Shown here: positions 27,415-49,384 of the stretch, in pieces
Numbering within the stretch: the first letter of the stretch is position 1
How the letters are laid out: each line of letters opens with the position of its first letter
Source of the DNA: an uncultured Bacteroidales bacterium
Lineage (GTDB): Bacteria; Bacteroidota; Bacteroidia; Bacteroidales; Paludibacteraceae
Direction of reading: 5' to 3'
Length of the DNA: 64,000 bases
Assembly (NCBI GenBank): GCA_902798015.1
Contig: CADBVL010000001.1
Location: 49,213-113,212, forward strand
Position numbers and translations under genes: made by a program
Notes under the pieces: generated by a model
The model's database searches: none
Told to the model about the DNA's origin: nothing
The model's input: only the letters and a program-made list of their open reading frames with translations

Positions 27415-30400
27415 ATGAGTAAGAAGATTTTGAATTTAAGTAGTGCAAAACTTACGGCCATTTCTGTTGGTCTGTTGCTGGCTGTGTTCTGCACAATCGG
27501 TATGTCCTTCCGCCCCGTCTATGACGAGAATGAGGCGGAGGAGATAGTCATGTCCGGCCCGAGAAGGAGTCACTGGAAAAAAGATGATGGATGTGGCGGA
27601 TATGACTATTATAACAAAACGGACTATGCCCGGACCGTTGCGCAGTCCATGAATGTGGCATACGGGACAGTGGAAATCACTGCAAAAGCCAAAGGTTCCG
27701 ACCCTGTTACAGCCGCAGACGGTAGTCAGTCGTACGTGGATTGGGATACCGGATTAGGCACCTCAGAAACCACGGGCCAACGAAATGATCTAGAGGTTAT
27801 CCATACCAACACCTTCACTTTTACGGCAGCTCCTACTGATCCGGAAGAGTATCGATTTGTGGGTTGGTATAGCGATGCCGGAGGAAATACGCAGGTTTCT
27901 AAAGATAATCCTTGGGAGGATGTAGAAGTAAAATTCCCGGACCAAGCAGGATTTACAAGTTATAAATCCAACTCTGGAGTGACTACATATGAAGGTTCTA
28001 CCCGCTATACTGTAACCTACTATGCTAAGTTTGCCCAGATTCCCGCAATCAACGTGACGTTCTTAGCGGCATCAACACCGGCGAAAGATAAAGGCTCATA
28101 TACCGTTGTAGGTAAAGGGGTGAATAGCACAATCACTACTTCCAATCAGGTTATACCGGTGAAGAGCATTACGTTAACTGCCACACCTTCTGAAGCGACG
28201 GAGTTTCTTAACTGGTATAAGTTAGGCGCAGGAGATGAGAAAATAATTCTTTCTACGGAGAATCCGTTCACGACATCCTTTACGGAGAAGACTACCGTAG
28301 GCGTAGAATGGCGTGAATTGGAAAAGAATCTCACCATCGTTTTTAAAGCAGTGGAGAAAGATGAGTCTGGCGTTAGAAAAGGAAGTTACACCGTTGATGG
28401 CGTAACTGTTTCTGCAACGGACTATGAGCATTTTACCGGAGATACGTATAGATATTCTCCTACACTGGTAGCAACTCCGGCAACGGGTTATAGTTTTAAA
28501 GGATGGTATGTCAAAGAAGCAGGAGTAAAACGCTATCTTAGTACAGATGCTACTTGGACGCCGACGATAACGGAAGAACTGACGATATACGCAGACTTTG
28601 TGTTTACAGCATATCCTGCGGAATCGTTGGCTCAATTCAAGGTGGGTTCTACATACTATGACGATCTCAATGCCGCCAATACAGCGGCAAAGAGTGCCAG
28701 CAAAAAAGTGATTATCTGTACCCGTGACGGTTATCTGCTGCCGGGTAATTATACCATATCAAGCGGTGTATCCCTGCTTATCCCCTATAGCACAGCGGAG
28801 ACGGTACAAACAGAACCTGCCGTAGTAGATAAACCATCACCTGCTCCCCTGCCAAATGCGTATCGTACCTTGACGATGTTGGATGGAGCGGATATCACTT
28901 GTGAAGGAACCATATGTGTGGGAGGTCAGATCATATCGCATCAGGGAGGCAATGCAACTGCTTATCCAGCCGGAGACCTTGGCGTAATCAACATGGCAAA
29001 TGGTGGACATATTGAGTTGAAATCAGGCGCTACTTTATATGCTTGGGGTTTTATCAAGGGGCAAGACAAAGACCAGGGAAACAACACGACAGGAGTAGGA
29101 ACGATTACTGCCAATAATGGATCTACCGTATGGGAGGATATCCCATTTGGAGATTTTCGTGGCGGTTCCCAACTTGCGGCGGGTAATGAGTGTGCGGACG
29201 ACTATCGGTGGTTCCCTTTCCAAAGTTATACTATCCAAAACATAGAAGTTCCTCTGACAATCAAATATGGAGCGAGTGAAAAAGTATTTGCTGTGTTGTA
29301 TATACCTACAATGGATTTGGGAACTCAAAAAACAAAACCGACATTGATAGCAAATAGCGATGCGTTATTCCTATTGAAAGATAGTAAATCAGGAGTGCGT
29401 AAATGGTATGACCCGACTACAGATTTAGTTTGCTACGAGTTATCTGGTACGGCTCAATTGGATCAGTTAATAGTATCTGTTAATGTCGGAATTACCGTAA
29501 CAGTTAAATCAAGTGACTTTGATCTACCGATTTGCGGCAATATGCATATAATTCTCACTAACTGCAATATGACCCTGTCCAAACCGATGACCATGCATGC
29601 GGGTTCTGTTATAGAAATAAAGCCGGACGCTACGGTTACCATCGCATCCAATCTGCATGTGTTCGACTTGGATCAGTTTGATATGTTTGCAAATAGTAAA
29701 TATTATTTACCATTCAATAATTTTACAAGTCATAAATACCGGGGGACGGGGACTACAAAAGAATATATTAATGATGCCAGACTAATTGTAGATGGTACGC
29801 TCAAAGTAACGGGTGGAATATATACCACTGCTAATGGAGCCAATATAATGGGAAATGGCGGAGGTAAGGTAATTTTCCAAAGTGCTTTGCCGGGAGAGAA
29901 AAATATATGGTTCTTAAAAGGAGGATCCAATGGAACACAAGCCGGAGGAACCCACTATCACTATGATGGTATTTTTGGTAAAGGGGCAGCAGATATATAC
30001 TTCACGCCATACGCCGTCAATGCCGCTAACCTTTGTAATGAAGATGGTTCCTATACGAAGTCTCTTGCCAATAAGACTTTCCACAACGTCCATGGTCGTT
30101 GGTTTGTTGACGGCAAGCAAAACGAACAATCCGACCATACGCACGCTTTCACCTATATGGCTTCTGGCAATAGCGGAACGGATGTCAATACCCCGGCTGT
30201 TTATTCTCATGACCGTACAGGTCTGGAACCCCGTATGAAATGGTTCAATGTGAGCGAAGACGGATGTGCCGACTGGTGGGTGGATGGTAACAGCCGTCTC
30301 TATAACTGGTCAAAGTTCTCCGACTGGCACCAGTTTATCCCCACAGAGGTTACAGATATGTACGGTTGCTCAAACGGCTCGCTCTATAACAAAATCAGTT

Positions 30401-33400
30401 GTACCGTATGGGAAGAATTAGGCGGTACGGATGAAAACTGTCTTTATACTATTGGTGGCGTTAAGAAGGCGCTTGTAGGTACCAGCTTTATCGAGATGGA
30501 GCCTAATGCAGATGATGCAGCTTATCATAGAACAGGAGCGGCTACGGAGTACTACATCAGTTTCGACGGTTGTATATGGCATTCGGCTACACGTATCGAA
30601 GGAGAGAGAAAGGCTTATACGGTAGAGGAACAGCAATTCATATGGTTTGAGAATAACTGGTTGAATGTGACGCGCGAAGCCCCGTTCTTCTATTCTACCG
30701 ACGAACTGAATGTGAAGACCTACTATGAGTATATAGGTAGTGAGTGGGTGATAGCGGAGCCGTACGTGCGTGTGACAACAAGCGATCCAACGCAAACGCG
30801 TAGCCTCTTGACATTCTACGAGGCAGTAGCAGTAGCTAACCAATATAAAAACCCAACGATTACGATTCTGCGTGATATACCTACCGGTTCAGAATCTGCA
30901 GTATATACAGCAGCGAATACTACGTGTACGTTGGATTTGAATGGACACAAGGTAACGAGTGTATGCCAATATATGCTCAATATAAACGCCGCGGGCTCAA
31001 CTTTCATTATAAAGGATAAAACGTCCGATAAGAAAGGAGAACTCCGTGCCTGTCCGGAAGGCGGAAATGCTCGTACGATAGGATACCAAGTAACAAAAGG
31101 CACACTTAAATTAGAATCGGGCAAGATGTATTCGACGAATACGACCACAAGAACAGGTAGTACCGCAGAAACATTTACGTCGGCGACTAATACGGGTGTT
31201 GTGGTGAAGGCAAATGCGGTATTCACGGTGACCGGTGGTACGGTAGAAAGCGAGGATGAACATCAGCCCTATGCCGTCAAAGTTGAAACGAACGGCACAA
31301 TGAATTTGTCCGGAACAGGAGAGATAAAGGCGCATGCGACCACATGGTATTCCACACGTGGAGTAAGTCTTGAGTATGGAAATCTGAACATGTCCGGAGG
31401 TTCAATCCTTTCTTCTGCTATAGGAGCGAGCACCGTATATGGAGTTTTCGTGGGTGCCTCTGCTTCATGGAATGCAGCGAAAAGCACATCTAGTTCTTCC
31501 TATGGCACACTAACTCTTACAGGAGGAACCATTACTGCTAGGACACCAAAGGATGCCCGCGGGGTGCAAGTGTCTGGCGCGGCTGATGTAACAGGTGATT
31601 ATAATGAAAGCCCTATTAATCAAACTGTAAAGCTTCGTGAATATGGAAGGTGCAATATATCCGGCGGATCAATTAATGCAGAGGCAACGACAAGTACAAC
31701 CGCCTTTGGTATATTATCATATGGAACGACATCTATTACAGGTGGCAACATCACAGCAAACGTGCTAACATCAAGTCAAAGTACAGCTTATGGAGTGCGG
31801 GTAGATGGAGGTGTAACTACGATAAACGGAAGCGCAAATATAGTAGCAAATGCGCCTACGGTAGCTTATGGAGTTTTAGTCCAAGGCGTGGTAGATGGTA
31901 ATAGAGGATGGTGCCATTATGGAGAATTGAATATAAAGGGTGGTACCATCACAGCAAACACCACGAATAAGACCAAGGCATATGGATTATATGTAACCGC
32001 AACCACCAAGAACCTAGCGAATACGAACTCATATAGTGTGTTTAATGGCAATTATGCGGCACATGGAACAGCAATTATTACAGGTGGTCACTTCTACGCA
32101 AATGCAAGAACCACGACAGCGATAGGAATAGATGTAGAAGGTACAAAAACGCTGAATGAAGCCAGTGCAACTCCGGTTTGTACCATCAATGGTGGTTATT
32201 ACAAGATGACCGGAACAGGAGATCTGTTAGGATGTAATACTGCTGCACTCCCCGCTAACTTCCAAATTAATGGAGGATACTACAGTCATGAGGGTAATCT
32301 GGAGGGCTATGCTGTATCACCGAAGCATGTAGTCACATTGCCTTCTTCTGATCCGAATCGACCTGATTACGAATATAAAGTGGCTGAGGCTTATACGATT
32401 ACATTCAAGAGTGAGAATGGCGAAACAACTCTCCAGTCTTCCTATCAAGAAAAAGGAACCACTCCGGAATATAATGGAGAACCCCAGACGAAACCCAGTT
32501 CGACAACTACATCTTACGTATTTGATGGTTGGTCATCTTCTATTGGAGGCTCTTTAGTTTCGCCGCTGACATCCGTAACCTCTTCGGGAGGAACCTATTA
32601 TGCTCACTTCAACGAAACAACGCTGAAGTACATGGTTACGCTGGATGCTAAGACAAACGGCGGTAATGAAGAAGCACAGGTAATCTATGTAGAGCCGAGT
32701 GCTGCTGTGGGCACATTGCCTACCGCCACCAAAACCGGTTATACACAAACAGGTTGGTATACAGCCGCATCGGGTGGTACGAAGTTAGAAACGACTACGT
32801 CTATTACTGCGGATGGTACATATTATGCGCAGTTTGGTATCAACTCGCATACGTTGACATGGAATCTAGCGGGCGGAACGGTTAAGACAGCTGGTACCGG
32901 TGCGGCAGCTAGTGCAACGGGCTCGCCGAGTAGCTCGGTTAACTATAATGCAACGATTACCGCTCCGGTTGTAACCAAGACCGGATATACCTTCGCTAAT
33001 TGGGGCGTTCCTTATCCTGCCTCTAAGATGCCGGATAATGATTTGAGTTATACTGCACATTGGAATCCTGCGACCAACACCAAGTATTACGTAAAGCACT
33101 ATCAGCAGAATATCAATGATGATGGTTACACCTTGGCGGATACAGAAACAAAGACCGGAACAACGGACGCAACGGTTACTCCGGATCGTAAGAGTTACGA
33201 TGGATTCTTAACGCCGGATCCGCAGTCGTTGACAATTGGTGCGGCGGGGACGAGTTCGCTGACCTATAATTACGACCGCGTTGTATATACTATTAAGTGG
33301 AACGCGTACGCGAACGGAGGTACGTGCTCCGCACCGAATACCAACATACGTCACGGTAAGACCTTAGGTACTATGCCGGAAGCTACACCGAACTCTGCAG

Positions 33401-36400
33401 GTCTGGTATTTGGCGGCTGGTATACTGCTGCAGACGGTGGTACAAGAATTACAGAGAGTACACCGATCCTTCAGAACTATGGTACGCTCTATGCGCACTT
33501 TGTACCGACCTATACCGTTACATGGAAGAATTACGATGAAAGTGTGCTGGCGACTATAGAGTTGCCATACGATGCGATACCTTCTTATGGCAGCAATCCG
33601 ACTCCTACGCGTGCGACTGATGAGGATTATGGCTATACATTCGACGGCTGGTCCGCTACGAATGGTGGTACCATAGTAGAGGAACCGCTTCCTGCTATCT
33701 TCGGTAACAAGACATACTACGCACACTATAGCACGACCCCAACTGTGGCAAGTGTGAAAGTGGGTAGTACAACTACGTATTATACCACAATTGATGCGGC
33801 GTTTGCCTTTGCGAATGAACAAACGGCTAACATGACCATCAAACTATTGAAGAATACGACAGCCGCTGCTTCCTTGGTATATTCCGCAGTTTATAATTGC
33901 ACCTTGGATTTGAATAATCGTACGCTTTCAGGTGCAATCAATAAATTGATAGAAATCAACGCTACCGGCAAAACCTTTACTATTGATGATAGCAGTGTTG
34001 CTAAGGGAGGAAAGATAAGCACAACACTAAGTACCAATGCTCGTTTGAATTGCGTATACCTTACGGCAGGTACACTTATATTAGAAAAAGGTTATATCTA
34101 TTCGAGTAATCCGCATACATATTCCACGGCATCTGGTAATAAAAATTCGGCGGCAACTGGCGTATATGTGGTTAATGGTAACACATTCACGATGGATGGC
34201 GGAAAAGTAGAAAGTGAATCCCAATACGCTTCCTATGCGATAGTAGGTAAGAATGGCACATCCACCATCACCATTAATGGAGGAGAAATATATGGCCATA
34301 CCACAAAATCCACCACGTCTGCCGGAATCTATACAGAGGCTAAAGGATTAACGGTTAATGGCGGAAATATCAAAGCTCAATCGTTTACAACTACTGCGCG
34401 AGGTATCTATATTTACGGAGGAACCGGAACGATTAACGGCGGAACTGTCGAGGCGGTAATTGATACGGTCGGCGGCTCCGGAACCACAACAGCATATGGT
34501 ATAGCAGTAGGTTATAAGAACACCTCATACAAGGGAACTCTAACCATCCCATCTACATCGACGGTAGTAGTTAAAGTTGTGGCCAACACGAATACCGCAG
34601 GAGGTGTCGTAGCCGGTGGCGGAACGGTAAGCAATAAAATTCAGGGCGGAACATACTATGTTCGCACCAAAACAGGAAAATCGGCATATGGCGTTAGCTT
34701 GCAAGGAACGACGACTCTATCCGGCGGAACGTTTAGAGTAAATGCAGCAACAACGGATGCATATGGTATTTTGTGTCAACGTGCAACGACGACAGTATCC
34801 GGCAATCCTAATTTTATTGTGCATGCGAATACAACGACTGCGATAGGAATCGTAGCCAATGGTTACATTCCTGCCAAAGGAGGAACCACGTATGGCGGTA
34901 CCGTTAACGTTGGCGGCGGTACATTTACTGTTTCGACAGGTTCCGGCAATACCGCATATGGTGCTTTAGCACAGCGAACGGGCAAATCTATTTATTCAAC
35001 AACGAATGATAGTGTCCCCAAGAACTATGCCAATGCTGGAACAATTACTATTACCGGTGGGGAGTTTGATGTGACGACTTATGCAAGTAATAGTTATGCG
35101 GTATTCTGCAATTCTGCAACTACTCAAAAAGCAAATACAAGCTATGATGCCGTTACTGCGACACCGAAGTTGACGGTCAGTGGAGGACGGTTTGTAATGT
35201 ATTCGGATAATGGCGCAAACACTACTTGTTATGCTGCAAATACGGCGGCAAAGGCAACGAACTTCCTTATTCAAGGAGGTTGGTATAGTACCAAGCGAAC
35301 CGACGCATCTTCGACTTCGAATCTTGAAGACAAATATACTGCTCCGGGGAAGGCTAGTTGTACATACTATACGATGGAGACCACAAGTGTGGATAAGGCA
35401 AGTGTGGGAACTGCATACAACTACAAAGTAGCGGAGGGATACCAGATTACGTTCAATAACTACGATGGTACGCAGTTACAGCAGTCGTATCAACAGAAGA
35501 ATACCACTGCGGTTTACGATGGTGCAACTCCAGAAAGACCGGAGGATGCAAGTTATACCTATGCATTTGCAGGCTGGAGTCCGGCATTGGCTTCTGTTAC
35601 CGCTGCGGCTACCTATACCGCAACGTATGCCAGCACGCCGCGTACGTATGATATCACACTTAATACGAACGGCGGTACCATCAATGCAGGTAATGTAGAG
35701 CATTACACGGTAGGCACGGGTGCAACGCTGCCTACGAATGTAACGAAGTCCGGCTTTACCTTCGGCGGTTGGTTTGATAACGACGGATTAACCGGTGATG
35801 CAGTAACTACTATCTCCACTACTGCAACCGGTAATAAAGAGTACTGGGCAAAGTGGACGGCAAGCATTGCTGACCGTGAACTGGATATCGTGGATTGGAC
35901 AAGCAATTCGATTACCATCAATGTGACGAACCTCAAAGCGGTAGGAGGAACAAATAAGAATAACTGGAAGATTCGTGTAAACGGCACTGACTACACCAGA
36001 ACCAGTCCGGAGTGTAGTACACAGTCACGTACGTTGACGATCTCAGGTTTGTCGCTTACGCCGAACGATAACCTGCTTATCCAACTGAAGAATGACGCGG
36101 ACGTTATAGAGAGCCAGCATTACTATAAGATTCCGCAGATTTATACTGCGAATGCTACGCTGGATGATACTGATGCAGAGAGTGTAGTCTATGTCTATGG
36201 CGGTAAGTTGACGATCTCCGGCGATGCCACTCTGGCTGCACTCTACGTATGTCCGGGTGCGGAAGTGGAGGTAACCGACGGTACGCTGACTGTGGGTAAA
36301 CTCGTGCTTCGTACCAAGCCATGGGCTACGGTTGCTATCAGCGGAAATGTATCTGCAGCGAACGTTTACTACACACGTATCGCTCCGGATGGTTCGAGTG

Positions 36401-37512
36401 AATATCCGACTGGACAGTACTATCAGTTCGGTCTGCCGTACGAGTGTGATATCGACGATGTTCTCTTGTCGGATGGCACGACGCCTGCTTATAACACAAC
36501 TTGGATACTGAAGAGCTATAACGAGGAGAGACGTGCAGAGAGCGGTACATCAACCAATAACTGGGATGCGCTTGCTGCTGATGCTACAATCGAAGCAGGT
36601 AGAGGATACGAGATGTTCTCCAGCTATAAATACTATCGCGAGTATTACTTCCCTGTTATCCCGACGGATAACACCTCTGTAGCGGTAACACGCCATGGCA
36701 AAGACAAGAATAATTCCGGATGGAATATCGTCTGCTCGCCGCTGATGAGTATCTATCAAAATGAATCGGATCCGGTAACAGGACTCAAGGTAAGCTGGTT
36801 GCTGGCAGACGGATCCTATGACCAAGAGTGGCCTGAAACGATTTGGCCGGCTCTGCCCTTCTCCTATCAAGCATCAGCAACCGGGTATCTGGATTTCAGC
36901 ACCAATGATCTCAATCAGGCTGTTTCCGCTCCGCGCCGTGCGGCTTATAAAGAGAACATCCAAACCGAGTGGCTCCATTTGGATGTAAAGGACGGAAACG
37001 GAGTAGGTGATCATACCAGTGTCTTTGTGCATCCAGACCGCTTCGAAGCTACCTATCAGACCGGTATCGACGTGGCAAAGCAATCGTTTACTGCTTCACG
37101 CGCGTTAATATATAGTTCGCATGCGTACGGAGAGATGGCGTTCGCCGGCGTAGCAGATGTGCTGCTGGAGAATGGTGTTGCCCTAACGGTATATAGTCCG
37201 AAAGAGCAAGAGCTGACCATCTCCATGCGCGACAACGAATGGCTCGACCGCATGGCCTATGTATGGCTCATCGATAACGAGACCGGCGCGCAGATAGACC
37301 TGCTTGACTCGGATTATACTTTCGAAGCCGCTGCCGGTACGACGACCGGAAGATTCATCCTCATGGGACGATTCTTCGCGCCGCAGATTGCTACGGATAT
37401 AGATCAGGCCGAAGGCGAACAGGCGAAGCCGAAGAAACTGATCATCAGGGATAAGTTGTATATCCTGATTAACGACCAGTTGTATGACGGAACAGGTAAA
37501 ATGGTAAAATAA
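27415..37512 (+). CDS. Giant 3,365-residue surface protein (duplicated beta-helices plus InlB/Flg_new-type repeats)
   Basis: The N-terminal hydrophobic segment (AKLTAISVGLLLAVFCTIG, residues 11-29) suits a signal peptide or anchor. Further modules: InlB-like/MucBP-like repeats to about residue 400; about 405-880 the module shared with the 13.5 kb giant; about 1115-1640 and 2110-2650 two homologous Gly/Thr/Ser-rich beta-helix arrays; about 1655-2105 and 2670-2830 InlB/Flg_new-type repeats (YTFDGWSATNGG, then TYYAHYS); about 2905-3365 a C-terminal region shared with the other giant, ending KKLIIRDKLYILINDQLYDG. No catalytic motif was seen. An extended, modular surface adhesin or sheath protein is inferred. 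It heads a run of exported proteins and shares their orientation. Confidence 0.85.
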   Translation: MSKKILNLSSAKLTAISVGLLLAVFCTIGMSFRPVYDENEAEEIVMSGPRRSHWKKDDGCGGYDYYNKTDYARTVAQSMNVAYGTVEITAKAKGSDPVTAADGSQSYVDWDTGLGTSETTGQRNDLEVIHTNTFTFTAAPTDPEEYRFVGWYSDAGGNTQVSKDNPWEDVEVKFPDQAGFTSYKSNSGVTTYEGSTRYTVTYYAKFAQIPAINVTFLAASTPAKDKGSYTVVGKGVNSTITTSNQVIPVKSITLTATPSEATEFLNWYKLGAGDEKIILSTENPFTTSFTEKTTVGVEWRELEKNLTIVFKAVEKDESGVRKGSYTVDGVTVSATDYEHFTGDTYRYSPTLVATPATGYSFKGWYVKEAGVKRYLSTDATWTPTITEELTIYADFVFTAYPAESLAQFKVGSTYYDDLNAANTAAKSASKKVIICTRDGYLLPGNYTISSGVSLLIPYSTAETVQTEPAVVDKPSPAPLPNAYRTLTMLDGADITCEGTICVGGQIISHQGGNATAYPAGDLGVINMANGGHIELKSGATLYAWGFIKGQDKDQGNNTTGVGTITANNGSTVWEDIPFGDFRGGSQLAAGNECADDYRWFPFQSYTIQNIEVPLTIKYGASEKVFAVLYIPTMDLGTQKTKPTLIANSDALFLLKDSKSGVRKWYDPTTDLVCYELSGTAQLDQLIVSVNVGITVTVKSSDFDLPICGNMHIILTNCNMTLSKPMTMHAGSVIEIKPDATVTIASNLHVFDLDQFDMFANSKYYLPFNNFTSHKYRGTGTTKEYINDARLIVDGTLKVTGGIYTTANGANIMGNGGGKVIFQSALPGEKNIWFLKGGSNGTQAGGTHYHYDGIFGKGAADIYFTPYAVNAANLCNEDGSYTKSLANKTFHNVHGRWFVDGKQNEQSDHTHAFTYMASGNSGTDVNTPAVYSHDRTGLEPRMKWFNVSEDGCADWWVDGNSRLYNWSKFSDWHQFIPTEVTDMYGCSNGSLYNKISCTVWEELGGTDENCLYTIGGVKKALVGTSFIEMEPNADDAAYHRTGAATEYYISFDGCIWHSATRIEGERKAYTVEEQQFIWFENNWLNVTREAPFFYSTDELNVKTYYEYIGSEWVIAEPYVRVTTSDPTQTRSLLTFYEAVAVANQYKNPTITILRDIPTGSESAVYTAANTTCTLDLNGHKVTSVCQYMLNINAAGSTFIIKDKTSDKKGELRACPEGGNARTIGYQVTKGTLKLESGKMYSTNTTTRTGSTAETFTSATNTGVVVKANAVFTVTGGTVESEDEHQPYAVKVETNGTMNLSGTGEIKAHATTWYSTRGVSLEYGNLNMSGGSILSSAIGASTVYGVFVGASASWNAAKSTSSSSYGTLTLTGGTITARTPKDARGVQVSGAADVTGDYNESPINQTVKLREYGRCNISGGSINAEATTSTTAFGILSYGTTSITGGNITANVLTSSQSTAYGVRVDGGVTTINGSANIVANAPTVAYGVLVQGVVDGNRGWCHYGELNIKGGTITANTTNKTKAYGLYVTATTKNLANTNSYSVFNGNYAAHGTAIITGGHFYANARTTTAIGIDVEGTKTLNEASATPVCTINGGYYKMTGTGDLLGCNTAALPANFQINGGYYSHEGNLEGYAVSPKHVVTLPSSDPNRPDYEYKVAEAYTITFKSENGETTLQSSYQEKGTTPEYNGEPQTKPSSTTTSYVFDGWSSSIGGSLVSPLTSVTSSGGTYYAHFNETTLKYMVTLDAKTNGGNEEAQVIYVEPSAAVGTLPTATKTGYTQTGWYTAASGGTKLETTTSITADGTYYAQFGINSHTLTWNLAGGTVKTAGTGAAASATGSPSSSVNYNATITAPVVTKTGYTFANWGVPYPASKMPDNDLSYTAHWNPATNTKYYVKHYQQNINDDGYTLADTETKTGTTDATVTPDRKSYDGFLTPDPQSLTIGAAGTSSLTYNYDRVVYTIKWNAYANGGTCSAPNTNIRHGKTLGTMPEATPNSAGLVFGGWYTAADGGTRITESTPILQNYGTLYAHFVPTYTVTWKNYDESVLATIELPYDAIPSYGSNPTPTRATDEDYGYTFDGWSATNGGTIVEEPLPAIFGNKTYYAHYSTTPTVASVKVGSTTTYYTTIDAAFAFANEQTANMTIKLLKNTTAAASLVYSAVYNCTLDLNNRTLSGAINKLIEINATGKTFTIDDSSVAKGGKISTTLSTNARLNCVYLTAGTLILEKGYIYSSNPHTYSTASGNKNSAATGVYVVNGNTFTMDGGKVESESQYASYAIVGKNGTSTITINGGEIYGHTTKSTTSAGIYTEAKGLTVNGGNIKAQSFTTTARGIYIYGGTGTINGGTVEAVIDTVGGSGTTTAYGIAVGYKNTSYKGTLTIPSTSTVVVKVVANTNTAGGVVAGGGTVSNKIQGGTYYVRTKTGKSAYGVSLQGTTTLSGGTFRVNAATTDAYGILCQRATTTVSGNPNFIVHANTTTAIGIVANGYIPAKGGTTYGGTVNVGGGTFTVSTGSGNTAYGALAQRTGKSIYSTTNDSVPKNYANAGTITITGGEFDVTTYASNSYAVFCNSATTQKANTSYDAVTATPKLTVSGGRFVMYSDNGANTTCYAANTAAKATNFLIQGGWYSTKRTDASSTSNLEDKYTAPGKASCTYYTMETTSVDKASVGTAYNYKVAEGYQITFNNYDGTQLQQSYQQKNTTAVYDGATPERPEDASYTYAFAGWSPALASVTAAATYTATYASTPRTYDITLNTNGGTINAGNVEHYTVGTGATLPTNVTKSGFTFGGWFDNDGLTGDAVTTISTTATGNKEYWAKWTASIADRELDIVDWTSNSITINVTNLKAVGGTNKNNWKIRVNGTDYTRTSPECSTQSRTLTISGLSLTPNDNLLIQLKNDADVIESQHYYKIPQIYTANATLDDTDAESVVYVYGGKLTISGDATLAALYVCPGAEVEVTDGTLTVGKLVLRTKPWATVAISGNVSAANVYYTRIAPDGSSEYPTGQYYQFGLPYECDIDDVLLSDGTTPAYNTTWILKSYNEERRAESGTSTNNWDALAADATIEAGRGYEMFSSYKYYREYYFPVIPTDNTSVAVTRHGKDKNNSGWNIVCSPLMSIYQNESDPVTGLKVSWLLADGSYDQEWPETIWPALPFSYQASATGYLDFSTNDLNQAVSAPRRAAYKENIQTEWLHLDVKDGNGVGDHTSVFVHPDRFEATYQTGIDVAKQSFTASRALIYSSHAYGEMAFAGVADVLLENGVALTVYSPKEQELTISMRDNEWLDRMAYVWLIDNETGAQIDLLDSDYTFEAAAGTTTGRFILMGRFFAPQIATDIDQAEGEQAKPKKLIIRDKLYILINDQLYDGTGKMVK

Positions 37513-40362: not shown

Positions 40363-41544
40363 ATGAGATTTTGCTTGCCGCTCATCGGCTTGTTGATGCT
40401 GTGTATGGGGGTGTCTGCTGCCGTTACGGAGAAAGCCGGAACGACGATAGCCAATGCCCCGTATATCACGGACACCATGCTGTTGGAGGTCCAGAGCGGC
40501 GCGAACTATATCCGTATTGAGCCCAAGCGTCTGCTGGCGACGGTGAAGTATCTGCCGGATGCGCCATTCGGTCCTATCCCTGCGGCGTTGCTGATGGGTG
40601 ATACATTGCCGGCACAGACGTATTTTGAAGACTGCTTGATGGGATGGATTTGGACGATCCCGGAGAGCGAGACGACGGCGTTGGTGGAAATTGTGGCTCA
40701 TGAACCTGCGCTGATTAAGGCCTGCCCGATGATACAGACTATCGAAGAGCGTATTGCCGAGACGGCATGCGACAGCTTTGTTTATGAGGGCACCAAATAT
40801 ACGGAGAGCGGTGAATACATCGTGAAGACGGAGAAATTGCCGTCCGGAGACAAGCAGGTGACGATCCTCGATCTTAAGATCAATCATACGAAGTATGAAG
40901 AGGAGACAGCGTCACAATGCTTCTCTTATACCGGTCCGTCCGGGAAGGTCTATCGCGAGAGCGGAGACTATATGGATACGGTGCCGATGGGCAATGGATG
41001 CAACCGCATCACGACGCTGCATCTGACGATTAAGACCGACGAGTGCTACGATGCCGATACGGTATTCTTCTGTACCGGATTCAATACCATCCATGACGAG
41101 GTGATTAGCGAGGGATATCTCCGTCGCTATCGTCCGTATGTGTTCCAGTCGCCTTCGGAATGGGATTATATGGAGGGTGTGATCCTGGCCGGAGAGCATG
41201 ACCGTACGTTGCTGGATCTGAAGCGCGCCGAGACCAATCTCTATGACCACTATGTGAAAGAGTTGACGCCGATCACCTCCATCCGATGGAGTGTGCAGTA
41301 TGACGGTCAAGGCCAATATGTGCCTCTGACGGTGTCGAACGAGCCGCAATGGGTAGCGACCGGTCATGTGGCGGTACAGATCTATTTCCTCTGCGGCGAG
41401 ATGTATGATACCGAATTCCCTACCGATATTGACCTGCTGCCGACGGATGTCGTTCCGACCAAGCGATTGGAGAACGGCCGCGTGGTGATTATCCGTAGCG
41501 GTGCGAAATACGATATGTTAGGAACCAAAATAACCGGCCGATAA
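40363..41544 (+). CDS. Exported protein with short shared C-terminal tail (unknown)
   Basis: A 393-residue protein with signal peptide MRFCLPLIGLLMLCMGVSA; the start at 40363 is preferred because the upstream in-frame ATG at 40342 lies close to the expected transcription start. Two repeats carry Cys pairs and the pattern ACDSFVYEGTKYTESGEYIV, then SQCFSYTGPSGKVYRESGDY, resembling the gliding-motility/adhesin-like domains of Bacteroidota. The chain ends KRLENGRVVIIRSGAKYDML, the short tail shared with the giants. Function unknown; likely surface or periplasmic. Confidence 0.75.
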   Translation: MRFCLPLIGLLMLCMGVSAAVTEKAGTTIANAPYITDTMLLEVQSGANYIRIEPKRLLATVKYLPDAPFGPIPAALLMGDTLPAQTYFEDCLMGWIWTIPESETTALVEIVAHEPALIKACPMIQTIEERIAETACDSFVYEGTKYTESGEYIVKTEKLPSGDKQVTILDLKINHTKYEEETASQCFSYTGPSGKVYRESGDYMDTVPMGNGCNRITTLHLTIKTDECYDADTVFFCTGFNTIHDEVISEGYLRRYRPYVFQSPSEWDYMEGVILAGEHDRTLLDLKRAETNLYDHYVKELTPITSIRWSVQYDGQGQYVPLTVSNEPQWVATGHVAVQIYFLCGEMYDTEFPTDIDLLPTDVVPTKRLENGRVVIIRSGAKYDMLGTKITGR

Positions 41545-41548
41545 GACA

Positions 41549-42835
41549 ATGCGAACTGCCAAATGGATCATAGGATTGCTGCTCTTGCTCCCGCTCAATG
41601 CGATGGCGCAAGCAACGTCATGCGCGGACGACGAGTTCTGGAAGATATACAAGGACTCGCTGCCCAAGACGTACTGCGAGTGCACCTATAATACGACGCC
41701 GTTTGCCTTCCCGATTGATACGGTATTGACGGAACCGGTATGGTTCTCGGCTACGATGAATGATATCAAGCAGGGAATCTCGGCTTACTGGTTCTCGGAG
41801 GACTCCGTAGTGATGGATGTCTATGCGTTCTGCATCAGCCATCGTCCCGCCTTCTCGATGATCGTGGCGCCGAACCGTATGTATGAGATGCCGGTGGAGG
41901 AAATCAATAAGCGACTGAGCGAACTGCCCGGTAGCGCGGAATATCTCAAGAACCTTGAGCCGCGGATGCATGTCTATACGGTCCATGGAGGGGTAGGTCA
42001 TGTATATTGCTATCCGTACAACCAGGGCCCGCACTCGACTTGTGAGAAGGCGCTGGAGCTGCGCTCATGGATGACCTATGTATGCGAGGAGACGGAGAAT
42101 GTATATCGTCTGCCGGCAAACAAGATCCCTGCGAAAGGCAAAGCCTTTCTGCGCTGGATCCATAAGCCTGAGCATTCGAATCTTAAGTGTAAGCCGGCTG
42201 ACATCCGTCTGGCCTTGGATAGTTGTGATGGACAAGAAGTAGGTCGTACCACGCTGACCGATTCGCTGCATGTATATGTATTCGATTCCGCTATGTTGGT
42301 AGATGCACGCAGCGCCGGAAGAGATGTATGGGTACATGTGTCGCATGAAGAGGGTATAGTCGGTCGCTTATGCTACTATGCTAATCCGAAATATGCGGAA
42401 GGAGCGTCCGATATCAATGAGTCGACCTGTTTAGGTAAGACGCTGACCGTCAACGGACGCGAGTATGCTTCGGATACCTCGTTTATCGAAGGCGTATATG
42501 TAGATCGCGATACATTATTGACGCAACATGTGACGCTCGTCTTTACGGAGCCGACGCCGATATACGACACCGTACTGGTTGACCCGAAAGACTTGAAACG
42601 GGGCGTAGTACATAACCTCACGGGGGCGGTGCTGTTCAACTACGGCGATACGACGATTGATGTAGTGGTGCCGAACCAATGTACCAAGCGCTATCAGGTG
42701 ACGGTGAAGGATCCTACCCCCGTGGAGAATGTGGATGCGGAGCAGAAAGGCGCACGCAAACAGATACAGAATGGAAGAATAATCATCTTTGTTGATGAGC
42801 GAAAATACAATATCGTAGGACAACAAATTGATTAG
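41549..42835 (+). CDS. Exported protein with short shared C-terminal tail (unknown)
   Basis: A 428-residue protein with signal peptide MRTAKWIIGLLLLLPLNAMA. The mature chain is Cys-rich (CADDEFWKIYKDSLPKTYCE, then CEKALELRSW and STCLGKTLTVNGREY) and beta-rich. It ends KQIQNGRIIIFVDERKYNIV, aligning with the tails of its neighbour and both giants. It starts 4 bp after the previous gene, so the two are coupled. No enzyme motif was found. The segment STCLGKTLTVNGREYASDTS resembles the Cys-containing repeat of the preceding protein. Confidence 0.75.
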   Translation: MRTAKWIIGLLLLLPLNAMAQATSCADDEFWKIYKDSLPKTYCECTYNTTPFAFPIDTVLTEPVWFSATMNDIKQGISAYWFSEDSVVMDVYAFCISHRPAFSMIVAPNRMYEMPVEEINKRLSELPGSAEYLKNLEPRMHVYTVHGGVGHVYCYPYNQGPHSTCEKALELRSWMTYVCEETENVYRLPANKIPAKGKAFLRWIHKPEHSNLKCKPADIRLALDSCDGQEVGRTTLTDSLHVYVFDSAMLVDARSAGRDVWVHVSHEEGIVGRLCYYANPKYAEGASDINESTCLGKTLTVNGREYASDTSFIEGVYVDRDTLLTQHVTLVFTEPTPIYDTVLVDPKDLKRGVVHNLTGAVLFNYGDTTIDVVVPNQCTKRYQVTVKDPTPVENVDAEQKGARKQIQNGRIIIFVDERKYNIVGQQID

Positions 42836-42888: not shown

Positions 42889-45800
42889 ATGAAGAAGTTT
42901 TTCTTACTTATCATGGCGTCGATGATGACCGTCTTTATGATGGCCGCTGGAACAGGCGATGGTAGTACCAAAGCCAATGCCATTGAATTTGATTGGGACA
43001 AGGGGATTACGCATGACGGAGGAACACTCTGGTATCGCGTGGATCTGGCACCGCTGTACGACGAGGAGAACCCCTCGTTGACGCTGTACCTGACCAACCC
43101 GAGTAATGAAGTTGGCACGTCTGTCGATGTCAGCATGCAGGCTACCGTAGCCGGTCAGTCGGAGTCGAAAGACTACACGATTGCTGCACGTCAGTACAAG
43201 ACTTACACGGCCAATGCTTCGATGCTGGTTCGCATGAAACAGACGGAGATCTTCTTGACCCTTACCTCAAATGGTAAAATCAAACTGAGCGCTAAGGTGT
43301 TTGAATCCGCAGATCTGGATGAGACCTGTAAAGATGCTCGTGTGTTGAAGTGGAACACGGTAACCACGCAGAACCCGATGTATTCGGCATGGTGGAAAGT
43401 GGATCTCACGCCGGTGAAGAATGCAACCAAGAAGGATGCAAAGATCACGTTGACCAACACCGGTTCGAAGACCGTGAACCTGAAGATTGGTCAGTCGCTC
43501 GACTGCCCGTCGTCCGGTTTGACCAAGCGTGAGTTCCAACTTGCTCCGGGTAAATCCGTTGAGGACACCATTCCGCAAGCAATGATCAAGAGCGTTCAAC
43601 CCGATGAACTCTATTTCGGCGTTGAGAACGTAGAATCGCAGGTAAGCCTATTGGTAGAGCTGGTTGACCAACCCGCTGAGCCGATTATCCCTGCTACCGC
43701 TGCGTTTGAGCCGCTGCACGTAACCGACACCTTCGTTATCGCTGCAGGCAAGCACTACTATCAGATCAGCGTAGCTGAGATGCGCGACACCGCGAAGTAT
43801 GAGCCGGAGTTCACCTATCGTAACTTAGGCGCAGTAGATGCAAAAGTATCGGTGAAGATGGCGTTCGAAGTACCGGCTTTCGGTACCAGCAACACGGAGT
43901 ATGAGTTGGCTGCTAACGGTGGCGAAGAGATTGTGGTTTACAAGAAGAACATGCTCGAGGGTTTGAGCGAAGACATCAAGTTCATCTACCTGCTCACCGA
44001 GTGCGACCAAGACATTAACTTCTACGGCCGTTTCAAACACGTACGTGAGGGTAAGGCTTGTAAGACCAATATCGACTTTAACTGGGAGACCGGTCATACA
44101 CAAGAGGCTCGTACCACGCAGTGGTATGCGATCAATGTAACGGACGCTCGTGATAACCTCAAAGACATTGTGGTTCACCTGCTCAACCAAGGTACAGCTT
44201 CGGCTACGGTAAAGGCTTCGATGGCATTCTCCTGCCCGTATATCGATGTACAGGAGATTACCCGTACAATCGCTGCGGACGGTAAGGAAGTATCCCGCCG
44301 TCTCGGCTACTCGACCTATGCAATGTTGTCCGATACTGTTTGGATTGGTTTGGAAACCAGCCAGGATATTAAATTCTGGGCTACCACGGTACCTGCTCAG
44401 ACCAAAGAGCCGGATGAGGCTTGTTTGAACGCAGTAGAATTCAACTGGAAGGACGGCGTACTGCAGAATGCTGAAGATACCGTTTGGTATAAGATTGGTA
44501 TGGACTCGGTGAAGACGCTGAAGAACTTCCCGACGGTATTCGTGCAGAACCTCAGCAGCACCAACGCTGTGAACATCACGGCTGAGTTGTCGCTGGAGTG
44601 CCCGGATTCAATTGAGAATGAGTCCCGCAAACTGACGATTGCTGCTAACGGCTCGTACAGCAAGCAGCTCTCGCGTAATATGTTTGAGAATATCTCGCAA
44701 GACACCATCTATCTGCGCATCATCACGACGGAGCAAATCAAGGTTCAGATCCGTCTGACCGAAGAGGCAGAAGGTGCAAGCTGCTCGTCTGCTATTCCGT
44801 TCAACTGGGTTAGCGGCAATACGCAGAAGGCGAATGAGGATCTCTGGTATGTAGTTGACCTGCGCCAAGTAATGCAGGATGGCAATGACCTGAAACTGCA
44901 CTTGGAGAACCGCGACAACGAGCAATGCAAGGGTGTGATCCAATTGTCATATGGTTGCCCGGTTGATGAAGCACCGTCTATCCAGGACTTCACGCTGGCT
45001 GGTAAAGCTACGAAGACTGTTACCATTGAGAACAGCGCATTGGATATGCTTTCTGACAGTGTTATCTATGTGAACCTGCAAGGAACGACCGGACTCCGCT
45101 TCTGGGCTGACACGCTCGAAGTTGAGCCGTTTGACCCCATCTCCGGCGAAGGTATCACTCTCACTGAGTTGAAGTGGGATGAGCTCTATGAGCAGAAGAC
45201 CGATACCGCATGGTATATCATCCCGCAATCGGAGATCGAAAAGGTTCGCAATATGGAAGAGAAGAAGAAACCGGTTGCACATCTGATTAACCTCGGTGCT
45301 GCGAATACGATCAAGGTTGAGGCTGCGTTTGCCTTCCCGATCACGAAGAAGATGATGACCAAGAGCCAGGCGGTCAAGGCTAATCAACACTTCACCGACA
45401 CGATTCCTGCCGGTACGTTTGACCAATTGCTGAAGAAAGACTCGGTTATCATTCGCATCACCCGTCCGGTTGGTTCGGCTGACTTCCAGTTCAAGGCAGA
45501 GCTTGTGAAAGCATTTAGCGGTAATGACCGTAAAGATGCACTCCCTGTTCGTCTGGGCGAGCGCCTGACGCAATCTCCGAATACCATCATATGGTATAAG
45601 GTGAAGACGGCTGATCTGAAGAAAGACAAAGACCTCTACAACAAGAAACTTTGGGTTTCCGCTAAGAACGCTGGTGCAGGTGACGCTAAGGTTACCGTAC
45701 ATGTTTACGAAGGTCTGAATTCTCAAACGGATATGTTTGAGGAGTACGGTCTGGGTGATTACAGAGAGCGTACGATCAAGAAAGGCCAGGGCAAGTCGCA

Positions 45801-47901
45801 TAACGTACCCGCACAAGCTATTTACGCTGTAGGCGATGTAGAACTCTACATCCAGGTTCAAACGACTGACTCGCTCGTATTCGAGACCAAGTTCGTCGGC
45901 GAGTACGCAGCTCAAGCCGTTGATCCTGAGCAGGCTAAGGCTAAATTGGTTGTACCGAACGTAGACTACGTGATTCCGGGCGACAACCAAGCTCACTGGT
46001 ATCAGGTATGTATCCCGTATATCCGTAACAACTACAAATATGTACACGCAAGCACGCTGGTATATGAGTTGGACGGTACGGCTACTATCGAGGCTACCGC
46101 TACGCTGCAAGACGAGATGGATTGCGCTATGCCGGTTCGCAAACGTACGATCAATAAGAGCAACAAGCACTATAAAGGCGAGAAACTGCTGAGTGACCTG
46201 TTGGCGAAGGGTATCAAGAAAGCTGTTAAACATGACTTTGATATCACTTCGTTCCAAGAGCAGTTCATCGACAGCATGCTGCATCGCTATGTAACGGCTG
46301 ATTCGATTACGGCATATGTACGCATCAAGAGTGATAGAGCGATTAAGGTTCGTTTGAACATGCCGCAAACAACCGGTGACGACTGCCTCAACGCAATGTC
46401 GTTCGACTGGGAGCATGGTAATGTCAATCCGAAAGATCAACATACCTGGTATGTAGTTGCACTGGATACCACGGCATTGTATCAGGAGAACAAGAGTCTG
46501 CGTCTCCATGTGGACAACTGGTCTGATACGGCTTCTGTCGATGCAACGGCTACGCTCTACTTCCAATGTGGCGGTGAGCCAGTAGCGCCGACAATTAGCA
46601 AGACGATCCCTGCCGGCGACAGCCTGAAGAAAGATATCTCTATCGACTTCATCAAGGCTTCCAGCCCGCAACTGATGTTCATCGAGTTCAACTCGACACA
46701 GACAACGCATATCTGGATCGAGAAGGTAGATGTAAAACGCGACACCGTTGAGGTGGATACCACGTTCTATGTATGTAAGGGCGCTACCGTTTTAGGTAAG
46801 GTCATCGACCTAGATACTGACTGGAACGACACGGTTCGTGATATCAAGGACGAAGAGAAACTCGCGTTGTACGACTCGATTACTTATATCCATGCGATCG
46901 TTCTCCGCGAGCCGAAGGTATATGACTTCTCGTCTCAGGTGAACATCAAGCGCAATGCACCGCTCGACCTTACTGCTGCTGACACTTGGGTGAAAGCTCA
47001 GTATGCTGCCGATGACACCAAACTGATTCAGAATGTAACGGATATCAAATGGCAATACGCTGTATACAGCAATCCTACCTACATCGATATCGACCTGGCA
47101 AATCCGCCTACGCTGGCTGCCGAGCGTATCAATGTGAAGTATATTGCTACTACAGAATGTGAGAATACGGTAGATACGCTGCATATGAATATTGCACGTG
47201 ATACCTTGGAGAAAGATACCTGTAACTTCTTCTTCTGGGATGAGACAGACTCGCTCTATATCCTCCCGACGACTGCAAATCCTGACTCTGCTATCTATCC
47301 GGGTGGCGCAGCATGGGGTGACAGTATCATCTACCTCAGCCTCGCGTTGACCAATCCGGCAAATATGGATCTGCTCGCGATTGCAAAGTATGGCAACCGT
47401 CTGTTGCTCATCAACCGTTGGGACTTCGCTAAGAATGGCTTTGAGACTGAGCCGCTCTATACCACCGGTGGTGATGTAGTAGTTGAGTGGTTCAACGCTA
47501 ACGATCCGGAGCATCCGGTAGCAGAGGGCTATTCGTATAATAACGCAGATGGTAGTCCGCTCGTAGGCACCTTCTACGCGGTTATCACCGTTAAGGGCGA
47601 TGGTCCTTGCGGACTCTACGGTCGCACGATAGACCTCGTATGCGGTCCTGTAGCTGCCGGACTGGCTCCTGCTCTCGCTCCGAGCATTGCAATGCCGGGT
47701 GAGGATATCAAAGTCATCAACCTCGATCCGGAGAAAGAAACCATCATCCGTATCTTTACGACCGAGGGCCTGCTCCAGCATACGTACAACGTACGCGGAC
47801 AAGAGACCTTCACGATTAAGGCTGCGAATGATCACGGCTTCTACCTGGTAGAGCTGTTGAGCGGCGAAGAGAAGTCCACCTTACGTTATATCGTTAAATA
47901 A
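42889..47901 (+). CDS. 1,670-residue T9SS cargo protein with about ten tandem domains
   Basis: Signal peptide MKKFFLLIMASMMTVFMMAA. About ten tandem domains of roughly 115-150 residues follow, most opening with CxxAxxFxW-G and holding a WYxV/I motif (CLNAVEFNWKDG...VWYKIG, CSSAIPFNWVSG...LWYVVD, CLNAMSFDWEHG...TWYVVA). They resemble PPC-like (pre-peptidase C-terminal) beta-sandwiches. The C-terminus has a clear T9SS type A sorting domain: DIKVINLDPEKETIIRIFTT, then GFYLVELLSGEEKSTLRYIV. It should therefore be exported across the outer membrane and anchored or released at the surface. It precedes the barrel gene by 17 bp, suggesting a joint unit. Confidence 0.88.
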   Translation: MKKFFLLIMASMMTVFMMAAGTGDGSTKANAIEFDWDKGITHDGGTLWYRVDLAPLYDEENPSLTLYLTNPSNEVGTSVDVSMQATVAGQSESKDYTIAARQYKTYTANASMLVRMKQTEIFLTLTSNGKIKLSAKVFESADLDETCKDARVLKWNTVTTQNPMYSAWWKVDLTPVKNATKKDAKITLTNTGSKTVNLKIGQSLDCPSSGLTKREFQLAPGKSVEDTIPQAMIKSVQPDELYFGVENVESQVSLLVELVDQPAEPIIPATAAFEPLHVTDTFVIAAGKHYYQISVAEMRDTAKYEPEFTYRNLGAVDAKVSVKMAFEVPAFGTSNTEYELAANGGEEIVVYKKNMLEGLSEDIKFIYLLTECDQDINFYGRFKHVREGKACKTNIDFNWETGHTQEARTTQWYAINVTDARDNLKDIVVHLLNQGTASATVKASMAFSCPYIDVQEITRTIAADGKEVSRRLGYSTYAMLSDTVWIGLETSQDIKFWATTVPAQTKEPDEACLNAVEFNWKDGVLQNAEDTVWYKIGMDSVKTLKNFPTVFVQNLSSTNAVNITAELSLECPDSIENESRKLTIAANGSYSKQLSRNMFENISQDTIYLRIITTEQIKVQIRLTEEAEGASCSSAIPFNWVSGNTQKANEDLWYVVDLRQVMQDGNDLKLHLENRDNEQCKGVIQLSYGCPVDEAPSIQDFTLAGKATKTVTIENSALDMLSDSVIYVNLQGTTGLRFWADTLEVEPFDPISGEGITLTELKWDELYEQKTDTAWYIIPQSEIEKVRNMEEKKKPVAHLINLGAANTIKVEAAFAFPITKKMMTKSQAVKANQHFTDTIPAGTFDQLLKKDSVIIRITRPVGSADFQFKAELVKAFSGNDRKDALPVRLGERLTQSPNTIIWYKVKTADLKKDKDLYNKKLWVSAKNAGAGDAKVTVHVYEGLNSQTDMFEEYGLGDYRERTIKKGQGKSHNVPAQAIYAVGDVELYIQVQTTDSLVFETKFVGEYAAQAVDPEQAKAKLVVPNVDYVIPGDNQAHWYQVCIPYIRNNYKYVHASTLVYELDGTATIEATATLQDEMDCAMPVRKRTINKSNKHYKGEKLLSDLLAKGIKKAVKHDFDITSFQEQFIDSMLHRYVTADSITAYVRIKSDRAIKVRLNMPQTTGDDCLNAMSFDWEHGNVNPKDQHTWYVVALDTTALYQENKSLRLHVDNWSDTASVDATATLYFQCGGEPVAPTISKTIPAGDSLKKDISIDFIKASSPQLMFIEFNSTQTTHIWIEKVDVKRDTVEVDTTFYVCKGATVLGKVIDLDTDWNDTVRDIKDEEKLALYDSITYIHAIVLREPKVYDFSSQVNIKRNAPLDLTAADTWVKAQYAADDTKLIQNVTDIKWQYAVYSNPTYIDIDLANPPTLAAERINVKYIATTECENTVDTLHMNIARDTLEKDTCNFFFWDETDSLYILPTTANPDSAIYPGGAAWGDSIIYLSLALTNPANMDLLAIAKYGNRLLLINRWDFAKNGFETEPLYTTGGDVVVEWFNANDPEHPVAEGYSYNNADGSPLVGTFYAVITVKGDGPCGLYGRTIDLVCGPVAAGLAPALAPSIAMPGEDIKVINLDPEKETIIRIFTTEGLLQHTYNVRGQETFTIKAANDHGFYLVELLSGEEKSTLRYIVK

Positions 47902-47918: not shown

Positions 47919-49384
47919 ATGAAAACTATTAAATCAATTTTAATTGCAGCCACCCTGATTTGTGCAACGGCCGTATCGGCACAAGAGGCACAACCGGCTC
48001 AGAAACATGAGTTTAAAGTGGCTATCGGCGACTCCGTGATGATTAAGCGTGAGTGCCAAAAGTACTGCACTGGTGAGAGACCTTCTGTTTGGGTATGGGA
48101 TAAAGTACATACGGTACGCCAATTGGGTACCAAGCGCTTCCCGGATGGCGTTCTGTTGATGAATATCTATTCGTGGATGTGCGAGGACTGCTTGATCCCG
48201 GTTAACGGTCAGGCTACTGAGAAAGCAGAGCAAGTACAGAAAGAGCACGCTGCGCAGAAAGAGGCTTATGAGCAGGCTGTGAAGGAAGGCAAAGATCCGA
48301 ACGCTGCTGCCGAAGAGGCTAAGGCCGCTGAGGAAGCGAAGGCCGCTGCCGCTGCCAAAGCTGCAGAAGAAGCAAAAGCCGCTGAGGAAGCTGCAGCTGC
48401 TGCTGCCGCTGCCAAGGCCGCTGAAGAGGCTAGAGCTGCAGAAGAAGCTGCTAAAGCAGAGGAAGCTAAGGCTGCCGAAGAGGAGAAAGCCGCTGAAGAG
48501 GCTAAACCTGCTGAAGAAGTAGAGCGCGTTATGGCTAAAGGTGACTCGATTCACTCGAAGCAGAATTTCCGTAACGGATATGACCGCTTTACCATCGGTG
48601 TTCGCGGCGGTGTGGCTTCGCAGTTGCACCAGGCTGTATCCGGTGTAGATGCGAAATGGGGTATCGGCGGTGACGCATTGCTCGATCTCCAATATGCACA
48701 CTACTGGACCAATGATGCACGTAAACTGGACCTCGGTCTTATCGTAGGCCTGAGTGTCGGTTATGCACAAGGTAGCTTCTCCGGTTCGGCTGACTCCACC
48801 TTCAACAAGGGTGATCTCCGCTATACCATCAATGCGCAACAGATCAAAGAGACGGACCATCAGGTTCAACTCGAGATCCCGTTGATGTTCTCCTTGATTC
48901 ATGACTGCGGTTTCTTCTTGAACGTAGGTCCGCGTTTCATGTTGCCGGTTTACACGCCGCTCAATCAGAGCATCAATAGCGCAACGGCTTCGATCACAGC
49001 GTACGATGCCGAGTCTGGCGTTACCCTCCAGGATAACGTGGTAACCGGTCAGTACGTAGGTCAGACTCCCCAGGGAGGCAACGACCTGCAATGGAAGATC
49101 AACATCATGCTTACTGCTGAACTCGGTTATGAGTTCCTGTTGAAGAGCGGTAACTCGCTGGGTCTGGGTGTATATGCTGACTACTGCGTATATAACTCCC
49201 GTTCGATCCGGCATTGCTGGATATCGCCAACCCGCCGAGTGCAGGTGGAACAGCGAACTTGGCAGTATTCTCTGCAACAGACACGTATGCAAGCCGTGTA
49301 GGTTACTTCGATGCCGGTATCAAGTTGGCTTACCACTTCAACTGGCCGAAGAAGAAAGCAGCACGCGAGGTTAAGTTGTTCTAA
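47919..49384 (+). CDS. Outer-membrane beta-barrel protein with Ala/Glu-rich linker (one frameshift near 49203)
   Basis: Signal peptide MKTIKSILIAATLICATAVS. A Cys-containing N-terminal domain (KRECQKYCTG, then MCEDCLIPVNG) leads into an Ala/Glu/Lys repeat helix at about residues 110-200, probably a coiled coil spanning the periplasm. A PorT/OmpX-like barrel follows (FTIGVRGGVASQLHQ, then FFLNVGPRFMLPVYTPLNQS). The first frame breaks after LGVYADYCVYNSR and ends at 49301. The other frame continues FDPALLDIANPPSAGGTANL to KKAAREVKLF at 49384, so one base (probably a T in CGTTTCGAT) appears missing. It may be a sequencing error. It probably anchors or partners the 1,670-residue protein, inferred from adjacency only. 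Confidence 0.8.

Follow-up and report, generated by a model that had tools for sequence, protein, structure and literature searches.

Seven genes for exported proteins follow one another closely, shortly before the gene for a core lipoprotein of the type IX secretion system (T9SS), on a contig of an uncultured Bacteroidales bacterium. Do they belong to one system, and by which signals would their products reach the cell surface? The stretch analyzed, hereafter the window, comprises 64,000 nucleotides of contig CADBVL010000001.1 (GenBank assembly GCA_902798015.1, family Paludibacteraceae; positions 49,213 to 113,212 of the forward strand). A reading made from the sequence alone had described the seven genes, here called A to G, as a possible surface assembly system. 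We consider it probable (roughly 0.7) that the locus, which belongs to one uncultured genus of the Paludibacteraceae, is an operon of T9SS-dependent surface proteins in which a short tail carried by several of the proteins would act as a short C-terminal domain (CTD).

The seven open reading frames (ORFs) all lie on the + strand at positions 27415-49384 of the window. They encode proteins of 3365 (A), 288 (B), 621 (C), 400 (D), 428 (E), 1670 (F) and 460 (G) amino acids (aa), and all seven have an N-terminal hydrophobic segment. From A to G, the gaps between the listed ORFs are 9, 9, 78, 4, 53 and 17 bases, so the co-directional and tightly spaced arrangement that had been claimed is real. On the 3' side of G follow the genes for TsaB, PorW/SprE and MiaB, and the claim that PorW/SprE lies shortly downstream is likewise borne out. 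The features to which we refer are the following:

13370-19795, + strand: M, 2141 aa, an A-like stalk with InlB-type repeats; short tail at 19709-19789
27415-37512, + strand: A, 3365 aa, with Listeria-Bacteroides (InlB B-type) repeats; short tail at 37426-37509
37561-38388, + strand: B, a small protein with N- and C-terminal hydrophobic segments that accompanies A-type stalks
38398-40263, + strand: C, 621 aa, exported; fused to D in 8 loci
40290-40321, + strand: promoter-like site of the Bacteroidetes type, ending 20 bases before D
40342-41544, + strand: D, 400 aa, 10 Cys; short tail at 41455-41532
41549-42835, + strand: E, 428 aa, 12 Cys; short tail at 42749-42829
42889-47901, + strand: F, 1670 aa; ten tandem domains, a C-terminal region and a type A T9SS tail at about residues 1604-1670
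47919-49384, + strand: G, an outer-membrane barrel of eight strands that also has a small N-terminal domain and an Ala/Glu helix; the frame breaks near 49,209
49392-50063, + strand: tsaB, housekeeping gene (TIGR03725); start set from orthologues
50078-52663, + strand: porW/sprE, T9SS core lipoprotein (NF052312 590 bits, cut-off 250)

Gene order around F and putative transcription units

To follow the neighborhood across species we used 67 loci, which are genome contigs found with F, and all gene-order counts cover F-containing loci only. The loci are labelled as uncultured Bacteroidales or Paludibacteraceae, plus one Candidatus Colicola equi and one Alistipes sp., and for many of them the label gives the rumen, other stomach parts or the gut of herbivores as the source. 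These records are metagenome-assembled genomes (MAGs) or genomes without a species name, and some loci are also genomes in our genus sample (L131 is G011, L115 is G033) and are not independent of it. The nearest relative is L073, with 99% identity across 613 compared columns of F.

Where a locus extends far enough, E (in L088 the D-E fusion) lies directly upstream of F in 58 out of 61 and G directly downstream in 58 out of 60, with a median F-G gap of 18, while tsaB and porW follow downstream in 39 out of 56. The scattering in close relatives that would have refuted the sequence-only reading is thus not seen. The sequences show E-F-G to be a conserved trio, preceded in many species by D or a C-D fusion and followed by tsaB-porW. 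Because this order and spacing recur in many species, they are above chance. The upstream part is looser. C lies upstream of F in 47 of 59 loci and solely downstream in 6, and D is a separate gene in 32 of 59. Further upstream, the 59 loci with room hold A and B (15 loci), A without B (5), an M-type stalk without B (26) or none of these that we could see (13); this part appears to be an adhesin-like module made of A and B or an M-type stalk, plus C. The picture of seven genes kept together is therefore partly right. Fusions join C to D in eight loci (L074, L079, L084, L086, L101, L107, L111 and L116) and D to E in one (L088), and they support a presumed joint action of the proteins.

It could be argued that the neighborhood merely gathers surface proteins that act independently, with G as an unrelated OmpX-like protein. 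The variation of A, B, C and D between species would fit such a gathering, as would the lack of F in 28 of the 61 genus genomes, but the E-F-G order in nearly every F locus, the short median gap between F and G and the C-D and D-E fusions speak against it, and we regard it as unlikely. Because F is present in only 33 of the 61 genus genomes, the unit is accessory in the genus. Among 198 Bacteroidales genomes, the F domain profile was matched solely by the source genome. A search for C in 61 genomes (37 from the genus and 24 others) found it in 23, all of which belong to the genus.

In order to delimit transcription units, we searched for the motif TTTG-N17-23-TAnnTTTG, the Bacteroidetes promoter consensus. 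It occurs five times in the window against 0.88 expected, a count reached by none of 100 shuffles. Across loci, such a site lies near the start of 26 out of 32 D genes (expectation 0.027 per searched start region, here and below) and of 9 out of 54 C genes. In the C-D fusions it precedes C in five of eight; L086, one of the eight, begins too close to the locus end for the search. No site was found near the starts of 61 G, 40 tsaB, 40 porW and 39 miaB genes, nor near five A or M starts, although A and M mostly run off the loci and can hardly be judged in this way. Because sites occur at the starts of D and of fused C and none at G, tsaB or porW, D (or C-D) seems to be the head of a unit. This suggests one putative unit D-E-F-G-tsaB-porW, headed by D or C-D, with A, B and usually C outside it. 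The joint production of all seven genes proposed by the sequence-only reading is thereby divided: D to porW would be made together, whereas A, B and most C genes would be separate, and the sites suggest at least two units.

The short tail and the type A signal

The short tail is a 28-residue C-terminal module found on A, D and E and also on the upstream A-like M (roughly K-x-x-x-(N/D)-G-x-(L/I/V)-(Y/V)-I-x-R-x-G-x-x-Y-x-x-x-G-x-x-(V/I)). A profile built from 20 tails (A2) matched 67 places in the source genome at E up to 0.001, and at the same threshold the tail is present in all 61 genus genomes, with 3-106 copies each. Of 197 other Bacteroidales, three genomes had one or two short tails (E up to 0.01), one of them from the same family, and none was found in 294 other Bacteroidia at E up to 0.001; in these samples of the order and the class, most families are represented by one or two genomes, and the scans scored 42 and 28 candidates from the source genome itself, against the 67 matches of the genus scan. 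In another Bacteroidales family (that of G144), 6 of 13 genomes encode short-tail proteins, one or two each. The tails of L176 (G144) and of L178 (G104, a further family) end 7 and 10 residues before the stop.

Which proteins carry the tail? We compared 41 distinct tails of the source genome: 38 at places outside the window and three others located in those stretches. In each of the 41, only 0-7 residues separate the tail from the stop; the frames comprise 49 to 3,318 residues, some being cut by the stretch, and 29 of the proteins have a signal-peptide-like start by our heuristic. They thus appear to fit the general layout of T9SS cargo, with an N-terminal signal peptide and a signal at the extreme C-terminus. 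A Pfam scan of 20 short-tail proteins gave family matches above the cut-off for 13. These families include M4 and M6 peptidases, alpha-amylase, pectinesterase and pectate lyase, together with endonuclease/exonuclease/phosphatase, BspA-type LRR and InlB-type repeat domains.

The tail is distinct from the type A signal described by TIGR04183 and PF18962. Neither model matched the short tails of A, D and E of the window, of F in L118 and L126, or of C in L115. No PF18962 match was found in the 20 short-tail proteins of the source genome (Pfam, E up to 0.01), nor a TIGR04183 match in 10 of these (NCBIfam, E up to 1). In the source genome overall, 67 matches to the short tail (E up to 0.001) compare with 12 to TIGR04183 (E up to 0.01). 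The F tail of the window itself scores 12.5 bits with TIGR04183, below the cut-off of 23. The four type-A-looking F orthologue tails scanned (L112, L115, L124 and L131) score 30.5-35.6 bits, and the E tail of L131 also passes, with 28.3 bits. The type C CTD model (ChiA, NF033708) gave only a 15-bit match (cut-off 40), in the type A F tail of L115. In most species, F is thus a predicted type A T9SS cargo.

We then assigned the C-terminal ends across loci, with one ORF per locus and with a type A hidden Markov model (HMM) that we built from 10 F tails and one E tail. Of 60 F ends, 51 are type A, 7 short and 2 unclear, with 5 more cut; these F counts lean on our own HMM, as TIGR04183 was run on few tails. 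Among 61 E ends, 60 are short and one is type A, to which the E of G028 is added as type A by eye. D ends are short in 32 of 34 cases, and the 19 ends of A-type stalks divide into 14 short, 3 type A and 2 unclear. Placed on the F tree, these states imply one change in E, one in F and two in C, the tree being a quick one with a long-branch warning that flags L131 and G028 among others. C may have switched tails twice, on weaker evidence: its states were set by hand (L115 by eye; L114 and L124 from a second C copy adjoining E), and the two changes are weak.

The exchanges can be located within orthologous proteins. In G016, the F body aligns with that of the window up to residue 1627 of 1664, and the E bodies of G028 and G011 align up to residues 386 of 468 and 400 of 475. 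Because these alignments run close to the tail, little but the tail differs. In L131 (G011) and G028, E, F and C all end in a type-A-like way, and both genomes have many type A tails (46 and 44) and few short ones (10 and 10). The simplest account would be a T9SS surface-protein unit whose members use two signals able to stand in for each other, and we read the short tail as a putative short T9SS signal.

An alternative is that the tail is a lineage-specific module for folding or assembly, for instance a tag for surface retention or polymerization, and that export proceeds by other means. It would sit well with the lack of TIGR04183 and PF18962 matches in the short tails scanned and with their weak profile likeness to type A, but not with a tail that stands at the extreme C-terminus, trades places with type A in E and F, occurs on domains of secreted enzymes and is preceded by a cleavage-like motif in 28 of 41 cases. 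We consider it improbable. That motif was sought in the 25 residues ahead of the tail, and windows elsewhere in the same proteins served as background. The T9SS cargo of Prevotella intermedia is cut preferentially at PT/GI (PMC11969387). With patterns chosen post hoc, after the sequences had been seen, G[IVFLM][DEG][DENHRYQ] occurs before 28 of 41 tails and in 13 of 957 background windows, and the stricter [TQ]G[IVFLM][DEG] before 21 of 41 and in 10 of 957. A PT/GI-like cleavage motif thus precedes most, not all, short tails.

Several observations weigh against our reading of the locus and its tail, beginning with this late choice of patterns. The first pattern tried, T[GDSNAE][IVLM][DENSG], did less well (73/197 against 119/2922 windows), and by group it was found in 12 of 45 rows from the source genome, 10 of 61 E proteins and none of the 7 short-tailed F proteins. 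By the heuristic, 7 of the 41 short-tail proteins lack a signal peptide, and 5 more are cut by the stretch. In G012, the aligned F body stops at residue 1432 of 1666, well before the tail. From genome to genome, short tails do not become significantly fewer as type A tails increase in number (Spearman -0.22, p 0.09, 61 genomes). Descent of the short tail from type A received a probability of 7% in the profile comparison, in which the short-tail profile aligned to the motif-B-like part of type A and not to motifs D/E as first guessed. At the level of the locus, the link to porW is not obligatory, as tsaB-porW is absent downstream in 17 of 56 loci; F, as noted, is absent from 28 genus genomes; and some E and F genes have promoter-like sites of their own inside the unit (8/60 and 7/71). 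The small N-terminal domain of G had no Pfam match in L073.

Build of the individual proteins

Residues 24-1284 of F hold a single domain repeated ten times in tandem, with nine strong copies and one that is weak and split. A model of three F domains (residues 386-750) gave beta-sandwiches (predicted local distance difference test, pLDDT, 88.9; predicted TM-score, pTM, 0.61). A Foldseek search with it returned jelly-roll-like domains at low TM-score, and by sequence the domains had no match among solved structures. F had been described as about ten PPC-like domains with a type A tail: the ten domains are there and the type A tail is recognized by way of orthologues, but the repeats had no PPC match in Pfam at E up to 1.

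The ORF listed for G (460 aa) runs out of frame at its end. Alignment with the nearest relative shows a gap of 19 bases near 49,209; the final beta-strand, absent from the ORF, lies in another frame that ends at 49,384. Intact copies are present in relatives, and the break may be an assembly error. We modelled the copy of L073, which has a small N-terminal domain, helices at residues 98-178, a low-confidence linker and a barrel at 220-482, with eight long strands as counted on the model (pLDDT 83, pTM 0.55). An eight-strand barrel and an Ala/Glu helix agree with the barrel and coiled coil first described, even though the listed ORF is frame-broken. OmpA has an 8-strand barrel plus a periplasmic part, and G is similar in joining such a barrel to an extra part; in G, however, this part precedes the barrel, and none of 40 members matched the OmpA-like peptidoglycan-binding domain in Pfam at E up to 0.1. 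Twelve of the 40 matched OMP_b-brl_2 in Pfam and none the PorP families at E up to 0.1. In Foldseek, Pla/OmpT-type barrels ranked top, with OmpA and OmpX lower. A LysM-like reading of the N-terminal domain was dropped, as Pfam gave no LysM match, and five matches of G to solved structures by sequence, all with E 0.45-0.97, were taken as chance.

One role for G would be that of a cargo-specific outer-membrane dock for F, as PorP/SprF-like barrels are for type B cargo. There, too, a large surface protein is linked to an outer-membrane barrel (PMC10202324). G directly follows F in 58 of 60 loci, and among 198 Bacteroidales genomes its profile beyond the barrel was found in the source genome only, with partial barrel matches in four others. 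Both signal type and barrel differ here, however: G was modelled with eight strands and lacks a PorP family match, and F carries a type A and not a type B signal. Such a dock is conceivable, and we lean somewhat against it.

In A, Pfam finds eight stretches of the Listeria-Bacteroides repeat, and stretches that look beta-helix-like are visible by eye. Adhesion to plant fiber or to other cells is a guess at the function, prompted by the repeats in A and by the way F is built. B likely starts at 37,561, where its orthologues begin (the listed ORF spans 37522-38388), and its hydrophobic segments near both ends agree with the small double-anchored protein first described. In B (with Leu at the variable position) and its orthologues, a Pro-(Leu/Val/Ile)-Gly-x-x-Pro-Trp motif is followed by the second hydrophobic segment and then by mostly basic residues. 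This end resembles the tripartite sorting signals of exosortase-type systems; as a PID-CTERM/exosortase signal it gave no such NCBIfam match at E up to 1, and we set the idea aside.

C had been called T9SS-like. By eye its end is indeed type-A-like, whereas the HMM leaves 42 of 53 C ends unclassified, and 8 of the 10 short C ends are C-D fusions whose tail belongs to D. Similarly, the two Cys-containing proteins with a common tail are confirmed in D (10 Cys) and E (12 Cys), except that the tail is not limited to them. In hhalign comparisons, D and F match at 99% over about 150 columns, between the repeats of D and a segment of F close to its C-terminal end. The figure for D and E is inflated, as the two are fused in L088. 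Domains common to C, E and F are not claimed (C-F 69%, E-F 21%, and C-E 56% over a short end stretch only).

Elsewhere in the window, an AAA ATPase, an ORF of unknown type and a DUF3987 protein lie at 22572-26188, between lgt/sulfatase genes and A. Relatives of the AAA gene occur in different settings in G006, G012 and G015, and the AAA/DUF3987 set may be mobile. On the - strand at 8016-10249, a TonB-dependent receptor is apparently split into two overlapping ORFs (plug and barrel), perhaps by a frame break.

Known short signals and a proposed mechanism

Our literature search for short CTDs brought up only those of P. intermedia, which its authors present as the only species reported with both short and long CTDs (PMC11969387, also the source for the comparison that follows). 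As here, a short C-terminal module occurs there on many exported proteins beside long CTDs, and both cases combine a PT/GI cleavage consensus, a Gly...Tyr-Ile motif and a basic end. The two also differ. The P. intermedia CTDs have 43-55 residues with motifs B, D and E, whereas the tail described here has a 28-residue core, about 40 residues from the cleavage-like site. The former were mostly predicted by HMMs from P. gingivalis and T. forsythia CTDs, whereas the latter is unmatched by TIGR04183. Finally, by eye, the Tyr...Gly element comes after the Gly-x-x-Tyr-Ile element here, the reverse of P. intermedia, a comparison made from the published description. We read the candidate signal as akin to the P. 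intermedia short CTDs but different in sequence. Set against the type A CTD, which F has in most species and which the short tail replaces in seven F orthologues, it is less than half as long and unmatched by either model in the tails scanned. For other cargo, the C-terminal 22 residues of HBP35, with motifs D and E, are able to export GFP (PMC10202324), yet motif B is required in RgpB (PMC11969387).

The source genome encodes the T9SS parts SprA, PorU and PorW. In the mechanism that we propose, A, C, D, E and F would cross the inner membrane by Sec, and the T9SS would then read their C-terminal signals. F would present the standard type A signal, whereas on A, D, E and M the 28-residue tail would take over this role as a short CTD. 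At a Gly-Ile-Asp/Glu-type site lying about 10-15 residues ahead of the tail, PorU would cleave the protein and attach it to a surface sugar; the predicted surface location follows from the sorting signals. There, the ten sandwich domains of F may protrude as a rod, with E and D nearby and G as its base in the outer membrane, and a transcript in common with porW would couple the production of these proteins to that of a T9SS core component. Least certain in this scheme are the E-F-G complex and the part played by G; G as the base of F and PorU cleavage at the proposed site are what we infer.

Natural orthologue pairs that differ mainly in the tail offer ready-made tests of what the T9SS requires in a signal. 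We give about even chances to the more specific proposal that the genus uses a distinct, minimal 28-residue T9SS signal with another motif order as its main export tag, that this signal can replace type A in orthologous proteins, and that some of the cargo is encoded on the transcript of PorW. If this is true, searches with TIGR04183 would miss much of the T9SS cargo in this genus, and the secretomes of such MAGs would be undercounted.

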